Assembly (NCBI RefSeq): GCF_015665295.1
Contig: NZ_JADFAJ010000010.1
Span: forward strand, 1-64,000
Direction: 5' to 3'
From: Maricaulis sp.
Lineage (GTDB): Bacteria > Pseudomonadota > Alphaproteobacteria > Caulobacterales > Maricaulaceae
DNA: 64,000 nt
Of this stretch, positions 24,629 through 28,307 are shown in pieces (position 1 is the first letter of the stretch; the number at the start of each line of letters is the position of its first letter). Both the position numbers and the translations under genes were made by a program. The notes beneath the pieces were generated by a model that did not search any database, was not told where the DNA came from, and saw nothing but the letters and a program-made list of their open reading frames with translations.

Positions 24629-25807
24629 ATGACGGATACCAGCGAAGTGCGAGCTAGCAGCGCGCGTCCATCGGACGAGATGTTGCCTTTCCTGAACAAT
24701 TTCCACGACATTTTCACCACGATCGGGGTCTTGATCCTGCTCGGCGGTCTCGGCGTCGGCGCCGGCCAGGTCCTGGCCGGACTCGGCCTCGATGAGGGCG
24801 AGCAGGCCTTCCAGAACGCGCTGATGGCGCTGATTGGGGGAATCGCGATTTTTGCCTGGCTGCTGTCGGCCCTTCTGGTCGGCAAGCAACGCCGCATCCT
24901 GCCGGGCATCGTCCTGTCGGGCGTGTTCGGTGTGGCGACGATGATCGTACTGGTCTGGGGCTATGCCCAATTCCTGATCCACGGGGCGGGCCTCACCGAG
25001 TCGAGCTTCGAACGCGCCGGGGAAGGCGTCGACAACATGGAGTTCGGCCGTGAGGCCGTGATGATGGTTCTGGCGCAATTGCCGGCCTCGATCCGCTTCA
25101 TGCCGATCGTGTTCGGCCTCGCTTTCCTGCTGCCGGTCACGGCCTATTATGTCAGCTACCGTCTGCCGTTCGCCGGAGGGCTGATGGGGGTTGGCGTGGT
25201 GCTGACCGCCGTGATGACCCTGCTGGCGATCGACCCCTATACGGTGATCGTCTGGGCGCCGACCATCAATGTCGCTGCCGGTGGTGCCCTGCTGCTGGCC
25301 GGCATCCTGTTTGACGCCCGTGATCCGGGCCGCGAGACGCGCCTGTCCGGCACCGCCTTCTGGCTCCACTTCTTCGCGGCGCCTGTCCTGCTGGGCGCTG
25401 TGCTGAACCTCACCCAGACCGGCTGGACCTTCCAGGAAAGCGATTTTGCCAATCCTGAAAACCTCAACCTGTTTGCCGCCATGGCGTCGGACAGCGCGGA
25501 ATCTCTGCGGCTGGCCGTCACGGCCCTGACCGTGATTGGTCTTTTTGCCCTGGTCTCACTGCTGATCAACCGCCGCGCCCTGATCGTCTCCGGACTGGTC
25601 ACGGCGGGTGTCTCGATCGGGGTGATTGTCAATTCGTCCGATCTCGGCGCCGGTGCCGTCATCGCCGTGACCCTGCTCGTTCTGGGCGGGGTCGTGGTCC
25701 TGCTGGGTGCCGCCTGGAACCCGGTCCGCCGCGTCCTGCTGATGCCGATCCCCCAGGCAGGACCACTGGGCCGGATCTTCCCGCCGGTCAGCGCGGCAGA
25801 GGGTTGA
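24629..25807 (+). CDS. Polytopic membrane protein of unknown function
   Basis: 392 residues with about ten hydrophobic spans spread along the whole length (for example IFTTIGVLILLGGLGVGAG, VLSGVFGVATMIVLVWGY, VIAVTLLVLGGVVVLLGAAW). A polar region around residues 125-145 (ESSFERAGEGVDNMEFGREAV) and another near 265-295 would be extramembrane loops. I recognise no transporter motif or catalytic residues. The start ATG 24629 follows an AGGGGA. A bidirectional terminator separates it from the convergent sheath-like gene. Confidence 0.7.
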   Translation: MTDTSEVRASSARPSDEMLPFLNNFHDIFTTIGVLILLGGLGVGAGQVLAGLGLDEGEQAFQNALMALIGGIAIFAWLLSALLVGKQRRILPGIVLSGVFGVATMIVLVWGYAQFLIHGAGLTESSFERAGEGVDNMEFGREAVMMVLAQLPASIRFMPIVFGLAFLLPVTAYYVSYRLPFAGGLMGVGVVLTAVMTLLAIDPYTVIVWAPTINVAAGGALLLAGILFDARDPGRETRLSGTAFWLHFFAAPVLLGAVLNLTQTGWTFQESDFANPENLNLFAAMASDSAESLRLAVTALTVIGLFALVSLLINRRALIVSGLVTAGVSIGVIVNSSDLGAGAVIAVTLLVLGGVVVLLGAAWNPVRRVLLMPIPQAGPLGRIFPPVSAAEG

Positions 25808-25825
25808 TCGATAAGGATAGTCACA

Positions 25826-25861
25826 AGGAAACCGCCCGGCCCGCATGCTGGGCGGCTTCCT
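25826..25861. terminator. Bidirectional terminator
   Basis: Arms 25826-25837 and 25850-25861 pair over 12 positions with one A-C mismatch (AGGAAACCGCCC against GGGCGGCTTCCT). An A-rich left flank and a TCTT right flank suit both convergent genes. Confidence 0.65.
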
Positions 25862-25872
25862 CTTGGCCGTTG

Positions 25873-27075
25873 TCAGCCGTCCTCCAGTGACATCTGGTAT
25901 GCGATGATGACAAATTCTGCCGGTCGGACGGGCGCGACGCCGATCTGCACAACGACTTGCCCGGCGTCGATATCGGTCTGGGTCATGGTCGAGCCCAGCC
26001 CGCATTGCACGAAATAGGACTGGTCCGGCGTGGCGCCCATGAACGCGCCATCCCGATAGAGTCCGGTCAGGAAAACCTCGATCTCCGCGATCACAGCCGC
26101 CCAGAGTGCTGGCGCATTGGGCTCTCCGCGGGTCCAGGCCAGCGAGTCTGGCAGGCTCGCCTCGATCCAGCGTTGCAGGCGGCGCACGGGCAGATAGATG
26201 GTATCTGAGGTGTCCGAAAAGGTGCGGGCGCCCCAAAGGACCGTGCCGTATTGCGGGGCCGTCCGGATCGGATTGACATGGGCCCGGTTGAACGTATCCA
26301 GGTCCGACGGGTCGAGCGGTCGGGTCATGTGATACAGGATTTGTGCATCCAGTCCGGCGGGAGCCTTCCAGACCCCGTCGCTGGCGGTCGTCGCCATGAT
26401 GCGCCCCATCACGGCAGGCCCGGGCGGCAGGCGCTCGCCCCGCGCATTGACCAGCCAAGGTGCATAGGCGGCGATGTCGGGATCGGTGATACCCAGCATG
26501 ACCCGCCAGCGTTCATAGTCGTCGGACTCGTCCGGAGCGTCGATGATCAGGGTGGCAAATCCTGCCCGGGCCGAGAGCAGGGCCCGTTGATAGAGTGAGG
26601 TCAGGGCCAGATCGGGCGCATCTGCCGGGCCCGTCGCACCAACCAGGTAGATCAGCGTGAATGCCGTGTCGGTTTGGGCATCCAGCGCGTCGAGGGCCGC
26701 GTCATAGTCGGGCAGGCCGTCCTCATTGTCGCCGGCATGGACCAGCAGCGCTCGCTCGCCGCCTTGCGCGCGAAAGGCGTCCACGACGGGAGCGGCGAGA
26801 TCAAACCCGGGGGGAAGGGGCATGCCCGGGACGGTTTGCGCCAGACTGCCCGTGGGCAGGTCGGATGCCAGTGGCCCGACAAAAACCGCCAGATCGAGAG
26901 CTCTCGGGATGAAGGTCGTCGTTGCGGGATTACTTCCCTGGTCAACATAGACGCCTGGATGGCGCTGCGTAACCGGGAGCCCCGATCTTGGCTGGCGCTG
27001 GGCCATCGCGGATGGCAGCAGAGCGGTTGATGCCGCTGTGGCGGCGGCTGAGATCAGCAGGTGGCGACGATTCAT
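25873..27075 (-). CDS. Exported phage-tail-sheath-like protein (orphan)
   Basis: 400 residues. Residues 1-26 form a signal peptide with a Tat-like twin arginine (NRRHLLISAAATAAS) and an AMA cleavage site. The mature protein resembles phage tail sheath proteins (gpFI/contractile family). PGVYVDQ lies near its start and GVWKAPAG in the middle. The C-terminal sheath domain (281-395) shows WGARTFS, the LPVRRLQRWIEASL helix, LWAAVIAEIEVFLTGLYRDGAF, MGATPDQSYFV and IGVAPVRPAEFVII. No tube, baseplate, spike, ATPase or other tail gene is nearby. The sheath identification is from family patterns; export is inferred from the N-terminus. The start at 27075 is the first that yields the signal peptide. 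Confidence 0.78.
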   Translation of the reverse strand: MNRRHLLISAAATAASTALLPSAMAQRQPRSGLPVTQRHPGVYVDQGSNPATTTFIPRALDLAVFVGPLASDLPTGSLAQTVPGMPLPPGFDLAAPVVDAFRAQGGERALLVHAGDNEDGLPDYDAALDALDAQTDTAFTLIYLVGATGPADAPDLALTSLYQRALLSARAGFATLIIDAPDESDDYERWRVMLGITDPDIAAYAPWLVNARGERLPPGPAVMGRIMATTASDGVWKAPAGLDAQILYHMTRPLDPSDLDTFNRAHVNPIRTAPQYGTVLWGARTFSDTSDTIYLPVRRLQRWIEASLPDSLAWTRGEPNAPALWAAVIAEIEVFLTGLYRDGAFMGATPDQSYFVQCGLGSTMTQTDIDAGQVVVQIGVAPVRPAEFVIIAYQMSLEDG

Positions 27076-27197
27076 GGCATCGGCTCCGCGGCAGTTGTCG
27101 ATGGGTGTTGCAGATAGCAACCTGCCCCATTTACCCGCGCGAGTCGCGGTACAATCATGGGGTGAGTCGAAAATCCGGCCCGGAGGAGTGTGCCGCC

Positions 27198-28307
27198 ATG
27201 GCATTCGAGACAGATGCGATCATCGTCGGAGGCGGGGCTGTCGGGCTGGCGACCGGGCGTGCCTTCGCCCGGCGCGGGCATGAGACCATTGTGCTGGAAG
27301 CCGAAGCGAAGATTGGCCAGGGGATCTCCTCGCGCAATTCCGAAGTCATTCATGGCGGGCTCTACTATCCGACCGGATCGCTGAAGGCGCGGCTCTGCGT
27401 CGCCGGCCGGATGATGCTCTATGCCTTTCTGGAGCATCATCACCTGCCGCACGAGAAATGCGGCAAGCTGGTCGTCGCGACCGAGCCGCACGAGATCGAA
27501 CGGCTTGATGCCATTCTCGACCAGGCCAATACCAACCAGGTTGGCGGCATGCGACGGCTCAGCGGCGCCGAGGCCCGGGCGCTGGAGCCGGAGCTGAGGG
27601 TTGAGGCTGCGCTGCTCTCAGGGGAGAGCGGTGTCATGGATGCCCACGCCTACATGGACGCGCTCGCCGGCGAGATTGCCGGGCATGGCGGAGCCATTGC
27701 GGTCAATACACCCTTCGCCGGCGCGACGCCGCTCAAGGGCGGCGGTTTTGTCGTTCGCACGGGTGGCGAGCACGCTACCGAAGTCACGACACGCTATCTG
27801 GTGATCGCCGCCGGGCTGGGCGCGCAGGCGGCCGCCGGGCAAGTCGAGACATTTCCCGCCGCAGCAATCCCGCCGCTGCACTATGGCAAGGGTGTCTATT
27901 TCACCCTGTCCGGCAAGGCGCCGTTCTCGCGCCTTGTCTATCCGTTGCCGATTCCGGGCGCATTGGGCACGCATTATCGCCGCGATCTGGGCGGGCAGGC
28001 GCGTTTCGGGCCGGACCTCGCCTTTGTCGAGACCGAAGATTACACGGTCGATCCGGAGCGGGCCGAGGCCTTCTATAAGACGGCCCGACGTTTCTGGCCC
28101 GGTCTGCCCGATGGCGCCCTGATGCCGGATTATGCCGGTATCCGCCCCAAGCTGCATGGTCCGGGCGAGCCGCATCCCGATTTCCGCATCGACGGCGCCG
28201 ACAGGCATGGCGTGGCGGGGCTCATAACCCTGTTCGGTATCGAGAGTCCGGGGCTGACGGCCTCGCTGGCGATCGGCGAAACGGTGGCGGAACGATTGAC
28301 CGCTTGA
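27198..28307 (+). CDS. LhgO-like FAD-dependent 2-hydroxyacid oxidase/dehydrogenase
   Basis: 369 residues; GGAGGAG nine bases before ATG 27198. The DAO-fold dinucleotide motif IIVGGGAVGLATGRAFARRG and the RNSEVIHGGLYYP segment identify the L-2-hydroxyglutarate dehydrogenase/oxidase (LhgO/L2HGDH) group, which oxidises L-2-hydroxyglutarate to 2-oxoglutarate using FAD. The C-terminal IRPKLHGPG and LFGIESPGLTASLAIGE agree. Length is typical or slightly short. It diverges from the sheath-like gene with a 122-nt gap. Related family members use other 2-hydroxyacids, so the substrate is tentative. Confidence 0.85.
   Translation: MAFETDAIIVGGGAVGLATGRAFARRGHETIVLEAEAKIGQGISSRNSEVIHGGLYYPTGSLKARLCVAGRMMLYAFLEHHHLPHEKCGKLVVATEPHEIERLDAILDQANTNQVGGMRRLSGAEARALEPELRVEAALLSGESGVMDAHAYMDALAGEIAGHGGAIAVNTPFAGATPLKGGGFVVRTGGEHATEVTTRYLVIAAGLGAQAAAGQVETFPAAAIPPLHYGKGVYFTLSGKAPFSRLVYPLPIPGALGTHYRRDLGGQARFGPDLAFVETEDYTVDPERAEAFYKTARRFWPGLPDGALMPDYAGIRPKLHGPGEPHPDFRIDGADRHGVAGLITLFGIESPGLTASLAIGETVAERLTA

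Follow-up and report, generated by a model that had tools for sequence, protein, structure and literature searches.

The sheath gene and its N-terminal signal

The analyzed DNA (the window, 64,000 nucleotides of a Maricaulis sp. contig) contains a gene for a tail-sheath protein within the interval 25808-27197, between a membrane protein gene and a gene for a FAD-dependent oxidoreductase (Table 1). The open reading frame extends from an ATG at position 27075 to the last stop base at 25873, exactly as placed in a preliminary description of this DNA. Its product begins with MNRRHLLISAAATAASTALLPSAMAQ, in which NRRHLL is followed by an uncharged hydrophobic stretch and then by SAMA, with QR as the presumptive first residues of the mature chain. 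This twin-arginine-like signal with an AxA-type site had been proposed earlier, and our ad hoc scan of N-termini recovered it from the sequence. The sheath's own PGVY arm follows the signal. Hereafter, G numbers denote sampled genomes (G000 is that of the window) and L numbers denote loci.

Translation probably starts at ATG 27075, because a GGAG element lies 8 nt upstream and because a homologue occupies the same site in another genome of the genus, G010. The G010 protein starts with MNRRQLLLSASAA, and there too a small-residue site precedes the mature part. A wrong start codon was considered and rejected on the basis of the ribosome-binding site and of the signal that G010 has in common at this site.

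Table 1. Features of the sheath locus in the window and signal-bearing tube-family genes of related genomes.
Feature	Location	Strand	Basis
Membrane protein gene without a Pfam family, bordering on the left the site empty in six congeners	24629..25807	+	Pfam, comparison
Solitary tail-sheath protein gene, 400 aa, twin-arginine signal	25873..27075	-	Pfam, PHROG, PDB, Foldseek
C-terminal arm, residues 384-400, RPAEFVIIAYQMSLEDG	25876..25926	-	Sequence comparison
Predicted sheath fold, residues 60-396	25888..26898	-	AlphaFold model, Foldseek
Phage_sheath_1C domain (PF17482), residues 290-394	25894..26208	-	Pfam
PGVYV, residues 40-44, start of sheath N-terminal arm	26944..26958	-	Sequence comparison
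Tat-type signal peptide (residues 1-25) with RR at 3-4; cleavage predicted to follow SAMA	27001..27075	-	Cleavage site inferred
Shine-Dalgarno-like GGAG, 8 nt 5' of sheath ATG	27084..27087	-	Sequence
Flanking FAD-dependent oxidoreductase gene (PF01266); right border of site empty in six congeners	27198..28307	+	Pfam, comparison
Tube-family protein, G200, Sec-like signal	L140:8906-9565		By eye
Tube-family protein, G213, Sec-like signal	L141:5392-6003		By eye
Second tube-family protein, G213, adjacent; signal-like stretch after internal Met	L141:4806-5441		By eye
Tube-family protein, G134, Tat-like signal	L142:9224-9793		By eye

Sheath homology and predicted fold

The window protein matched PF17482 with 33.9 bits (cut-off 26.9) at residues 290-394, and two PHROG tail-sheath families with E-values of 4.7e-41 and 7.6e-27; a search of NCBIfam gave no match. 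For the subtilisin-like sheath domain PF04984 it scored 18.4 bits, under the cut-off of 31.4, which a signal-bearing relative from G200 exceeds (32.8) and one from G134 narrowly misses (30.4). A sequence search of the PDB at E <= 1 returned 16 distinct matches, named sheath, Afp2-4, Pvc2-4 or All3325, led by sheaths of contractile injection systems (CIS) with a best E-value of 1.1e-36. By these sequence criteria the window protein is a true member of the tail-sheath family.

The AlphaFold model, built from an input alignment of 35 sequences comprising the window and related loci only, has a mean pLDDT of 80.5 and a pTM of 0.80, with low confidence at residues 1-51, the N-terminal arm included. 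Foldseek comparison of the model with the PDB gave 9qgp_2A as the best match (E 1.8e-21, 377 columns), and the 50 matches listed include chains from CIS, phage, tailocin and isolated sheath-protein entries. A second signal-bearing sheath, L039, which is 35% identical to that of the window, gave a model with a pLDDT of 78.4 and a best Foldseek E-value of 7.9e-25, again to CIS sheaths. The sheath fold is predicted over the mature chain, and another fold was rejected on the PF17482 and Foldseek matches. This structural comparison bears out the earlier proposal of a sheath-like protein. The same proposal had located most of the recognizable pattern in the C-terminal ~115 residues; PF17482 does lie there, but the homology is not limited to them, since Foldseek aligns about 375 columns.

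The sheaths Afp2, Pvc2 and PlPVC1 are encoded together with tube and baseplate genes in clusters, and their assembly takes place in the cytoplasm. The window protein resembles them in sequence (6rao, 6j0b and 9qgl/9qgp; E 1.1e-36 to 1.2e-35), in size (354-355 aa for the three) and in its predicted fold, and it has a C-terminal RPAEF in common with Afp2 and the PlPVC1 sheath. It differs from all three in being solitary and in carrying a Tat-type signal.

Signal-bearing sheaths among relatives

We surveyed 398 sampled genomes of the order with a three-row sheath alignment (A1) at E <= 1e-10 and found a sheath match in 26 of them (34 matches listed, four of which had no readable locus). Ten of these 26 genomes encode a sheath with a twin-arginine signal, predicted to be exported. 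Seven of the proteins are short, with 395-419 residues (G000, G010, G094, G154, G176, G200 and G213), and three are long, with 529-563 residues (G134, G363 and G335). All ten contain RRxxL, and four have the strict form RRxFL; within the first 40 residues, RRx[FL]L occurs in six of the ten versus none of 87 other sheaths. The ad hoc signal scan likewise scored the ten sheaths, which had been chosen by eye for their signal, as positive, and none of the 87. This comparison set comprises complete gene calls of at least 100 bits at loci from L037 upward together with two frames read by hand, and it excludes loci L003-L036 as well as shorter, cut or lower-scoring sheaths. The scan was positive for two of the 62 called genes in the window, the sheath gene being one of them, and for 18 of 267 called genes at L117-L131, where most of the other signal-bearing sheaths are located. 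A chance origin of the signal was rejected, as the signal is common to ten sheaths and absent from the 87 others. TatC is encoded in all ten genomes, and the window sheath is predicted from its sequence to be an exported Tat substrate.

In broader samples, sheath matches were found in 24 of 385 genomes sampled from the class (E <= 1e-15) and in 26 of 398 sampled from the phylum (E <= 1e-30), with at most four candidates scored per genome. Among the 55 loci taken from these two samples (L165-L219), a signal-like start precedes the sheath only at the window's own locus; the other scan positive, L182, has its start inside a phage-type sheath. Among the matches listed for the best 80 of 544 A1 relatives, a few of which are incomplete at contig ends, the only exported sheath recognized was L039, from a member of the Parvularculaceae and identical in sequence to the G213 sheath. 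A contig search with the single window protein as query gave no match. Searches of a plasmid and a phage collection gave matches in 121 and 41 records, respectively, and none of the matches listed covers 80% of the sheath query.

The preliminary description had held that homologues lacking the signal would mark the chosen start as wrong. The nearest homologue (G010), the other full-length match (G094) and the rest of the ten sheaths do carry it, but other solitary sheaths of Alphaproteobacteria do not, and the signal is therefore a trait of a subset rather than of all solitary sheaths. Such signal-less sheaths, for which the surrounding DNA that was read contains no tube gene, occur at L131:8441-9553 (19.9 kb read) and, within about 3.5-4 kb, at L166-L168, L170, L178, L180 and L204-L205. 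Those at L131, L166-L168, L178 and L180 resemble the window gene in having no tube gene nearby and differ from it in having no twin-arginine signal. Alphaproteobacteria may thus often encode cytosolic sheaths that stand alone.

Genomic context and accessory status

No CIS gene was recognized among the gene calls of the window, the window genome contains a single PF17482 match, and neither PF06841 nor the A4 or A7 profile detects a tube gene in it. These results agree with the earlier observation that the gene stands alone. The surroundings of its relatives are similar: the stretches of 11-20 kb around the other nine signal-bearing sheaths yielded no further recognizable CIS gene and no CIS or prophage cluster, and Baseplate_J gave no match in any of the ten genomes in a search that scored the CIS-bearing G352 and three of 14 control genomes. 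The tube search, performed with PF06841 and a 15-row profile at E <= 1, detected no tube gene in seven of the ten genomes, including that of the window and the single-contig genomes G010 and G094. Because the 15-row profile was built with the tubes of G200, G213, G134 and G352, these match it by construction. The window protein belongs to the sheath family but, with no tube or Baseplate_J match in its genome, not to a CIS; a hidden CIS or prophage in the window genome was rejected as far as the PF17482, tube and Baseplate_J searches reach.

Among ten neighboring proteins tested, Pfam named a FAD oxidoreductase (window), QRPTase (G154), RecR (G094) and RibD (G134). As judged by eye, G154, G176 and G200 have one site in common and the window and G010 another, and the remaining signal-bearing sheaths lie at different sites.

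Within the genus, the exported sheath is present in two of 19 sampled genomes, counting the window, and absent from 17; a third genome with a sheath, G012, has one of another kind. We compared the site in the 15 genus genomes that have the left flanking gene. The flanking genes are 1390-1391 bp apart in the two carriers, compared with 126-149 bp at an empty site in six genomes; five others have the flanks arranged differently, and the search for the right flank gave nothing in the remaining two. The left flanking protein is 90-93% identical to that of the window in three of the six empty-site genomes, as against 81% in the carrier G010. Empty sites in closer congeners, together with the two carriers among 19, indicate from the sequence comparison that the window sheath gene is accessory and has been lost or laterally exchanged at a single site.

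Evolution and conservation of the signal-bearing sheaths

Two trees were inferred. A quick LG+G4 tree of 87 rows, obtained from 112 by thinning out 25 rows that all have a tube gene in the locus, splits the seven short exported sheaths and carries a long-branch warning. A quick mixture-model tree of 41 rows, which were picked after the first tree had been viewed, places the seven together (SH-aLRT 89, three long branches flagged) and the three long exported sheaths elsewhere, in a group that also contains CIS and solitary sheaths. On the 41 rows, a single clade of all ten is rejected (p-AU 4.5e-5). This rejection, with the splitting of the seven under the simpler model, makes two or more origins of exported sheaths likely; the unity of the seven is not settled, since their grouping differs between the trees and long branches are involved.

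Conservation was scored at 114 positions that are fixed to at least 85% in 68 CIS sheaths. The window protein keeps 72 of them, with changes in both arms, the ten exported sheaths keep 67-88, and eight signal-less solitary sheaths keep 64-95. With totals this similar, the exported proteins do not stand out by these counts. All seven short exported sheaths retain 45 of the positions, among them PGVY of the N-terminal arm and PAEF of the C-terminal arm, and PGVY is present in all ten exported sheaths.

The dN/dS ratio was 0.32 for the window and G010 and 0.46 for G154 and G200 (YN00 gave no value for either pair), and 0.22 (NG86) or 0.11 (YN00) for G154 and G176, the dS of 1.2-1.4 in the wider pairs being a caveat on these ratios. 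At the sequence level, these values show purifying selection on the exported sheaths. The sheaths of the window and G010 are 52% identical, compared with 80-98% for six nearby proteins.

Tail-tube proteins with signals in relatives

Three of the genomes with an exported sheath, G200, G213 and G134, encode PF06841 tube-family proteins on contigs other than that of the sheath, with signals recognized by eye (Table 1). Behind the G134 gene lies a weaker, signal-less tube-like ORF, and of the five proteins in total, four score above the Pfam cut-off. The G200 protein shares 44% identity with the CIS tube of G362 and 45% with the G213 protein, and it matched 39 records of the plasmid collection, one at a coverage of at least 80%. 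These proteins resemble the window sheath as unlinked CIS parts that bear a signal peptide; they differ in belonging to the tube family and, for G200 and G213, in the Sec-like rather than Tat-like type of the signal.

Other arrangements were also observed. G233, which gave no sheath match in the order survey, encodes at L157:1405-2280 a protein of 291 residues that combines a signal-like start with a partial tube-like domain (30.4 bits). In G336, a single-contig genome without a sheath match in the order survey, a cytosolic tube gene (L148:1489-2052) lies between guaB-like and GST-like genes (about 3.5 kb, by eye). At L198 (G1050) and L201 (G1070), a sheath and a tube gene form a two-gene pair, with no other CIS gene recognized in about 4 kb.

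Proposed function and alternatives

Sheaths are known as parts of large machines built in the cytosol, and Tat exports folded proteins. The reading that we favor, tentatively and at slightly less than an even chance, is that of a domesticated sheath which is exported in the folded state by Tat and probably assembles within the envelope into rings or tubes resembling polysheaths. The preliminary description had already suggested an exported sheath-like polymer, such as a periplasmic or surface tube, and our results support that idea in part. A CIS-type tail sheath would have parted from its machine and then been domesticated. It would fold in the cytoplasm and pass out through Tat, and removal of the signal between SAMA and QR, a cleavage site that we infer, would free the N-terminal arm. 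In the periplasm or further out, the N- and C-terminal arms would probably drive self-assembly into rings or tubes that need neither tube nor baseplate. Cleavage, polymerization and any structural function within the envelope are presumptive. Polymerization is plausible by analogy, because published sheaths self-assemble without a tube and because the terminal-arm motifs are kept. According to published work, recombinant gp053 of phage FV3 builds tubes without other phage proteins (PMC6357053), the N- and C-terminal strands join sheath subunits in a mesh (PMC6088184), and long polytubes arise from a siphovirus tube protein by itself (PMC6466441). The stability of diffocin sheath monomers by themselves, also described in PMC6088184, counts against a polymer. 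The gp053 polysheaths, formed by a sheath without tube or baseplate, are a likely model for such an assembly, but they come from recombinant expression and not from a natural exported protein (PMC6357053).

The exported protein might instead be no polymer at all, with the sheath fold serving as a monomeric or small-oligomer periplasmic protein for binding or adhesion. The rapid divergence of the window and G010 sheaths relative to their neighbors and the retention of 67-88 of the 114 CIS-conserved positions fit this reading; both terminal-arm motifs are nevertheless kept, which a monomer would not need, and we regard it as unlikely, though the most probable of the alternatives. An accessory, fast-evolving and patchily distributed gene is also what would be expected of a conflict gene, and sheath-tube binding is established, so that periplasmic sheath subunits might act as a decoy, coating the bare tube once an attacking phage, tailocin or CIS has pushed it through the outer membrane, and stalling it. 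Against this, PADLOC gave no match for the five proteins tested, by which a known defense gene was rejected, no defense genes were recognized by eye beside the ten exported sheaths, and exported tubes in three genomes fit poorly with a simple decoy; we consider this explanation improbable.

The same three genomes, each with at least one signal-bearing, unlinked tube-family protein besides the exported sheath, suggest a further arrangement in which sheath and tube, encoded apart, are exported and join outside the cytoplasm as a tail-like sheath-tube. The absence of a detectable tube from seven of the ten genomes, including that of the window, and of a Baseplate_J match from all ten leaves little probability for it. 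We give similarly little credence to a leftover of a CIS or prophage that stays in the cytosol or is decaying and whose signal-like N-terminus arose by chance or is unused. Signal-less solitary sheaths do occur in Alphaproteobacteria, and the exported sheath is missing from 17 of the 19 genus genomes, but the signal recurs in ten sheaths at several sites and in none of the 87 others, dN/dS is well below 1 in three pairs with intact frames, and a ribosome-binding site is present.

Implications

We found no report of a Tat-exported sheath in the literature searched, with subscription papers and preprints mostly outside it. The word "sheath" is absent from a paper on Caulobacter Tat (PMC12911857), as is the word "signal" from a paper on sheath evolution (PMC9230969), and a table in a paper on the Tat exoproteome of P. 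aeruginosa gives the location of the R-pyocin sheath and tube as unknown or outer-membrane vesicles (PMC4899797).

Members of the order may have recruited tail sheaths more than once as Tat-exported, machine-free building blocks of envelope or surface polymers, with some relatives also exporting tube-family proteins; we consider this possible but doubtful as a whole. If true, it would represent a natural extracytoplasmic use of contractile-tail parts, raising the questions of whether a folded sheath passes through Tat, whether it assembles outside and what purpose it serves. A sheath that is solitary, exported and subject to purifying selection would amount to a phage-tail polymer turned envelope component, and the signal-bearing tube proteins of related genomes widen the case beyond a single gene.
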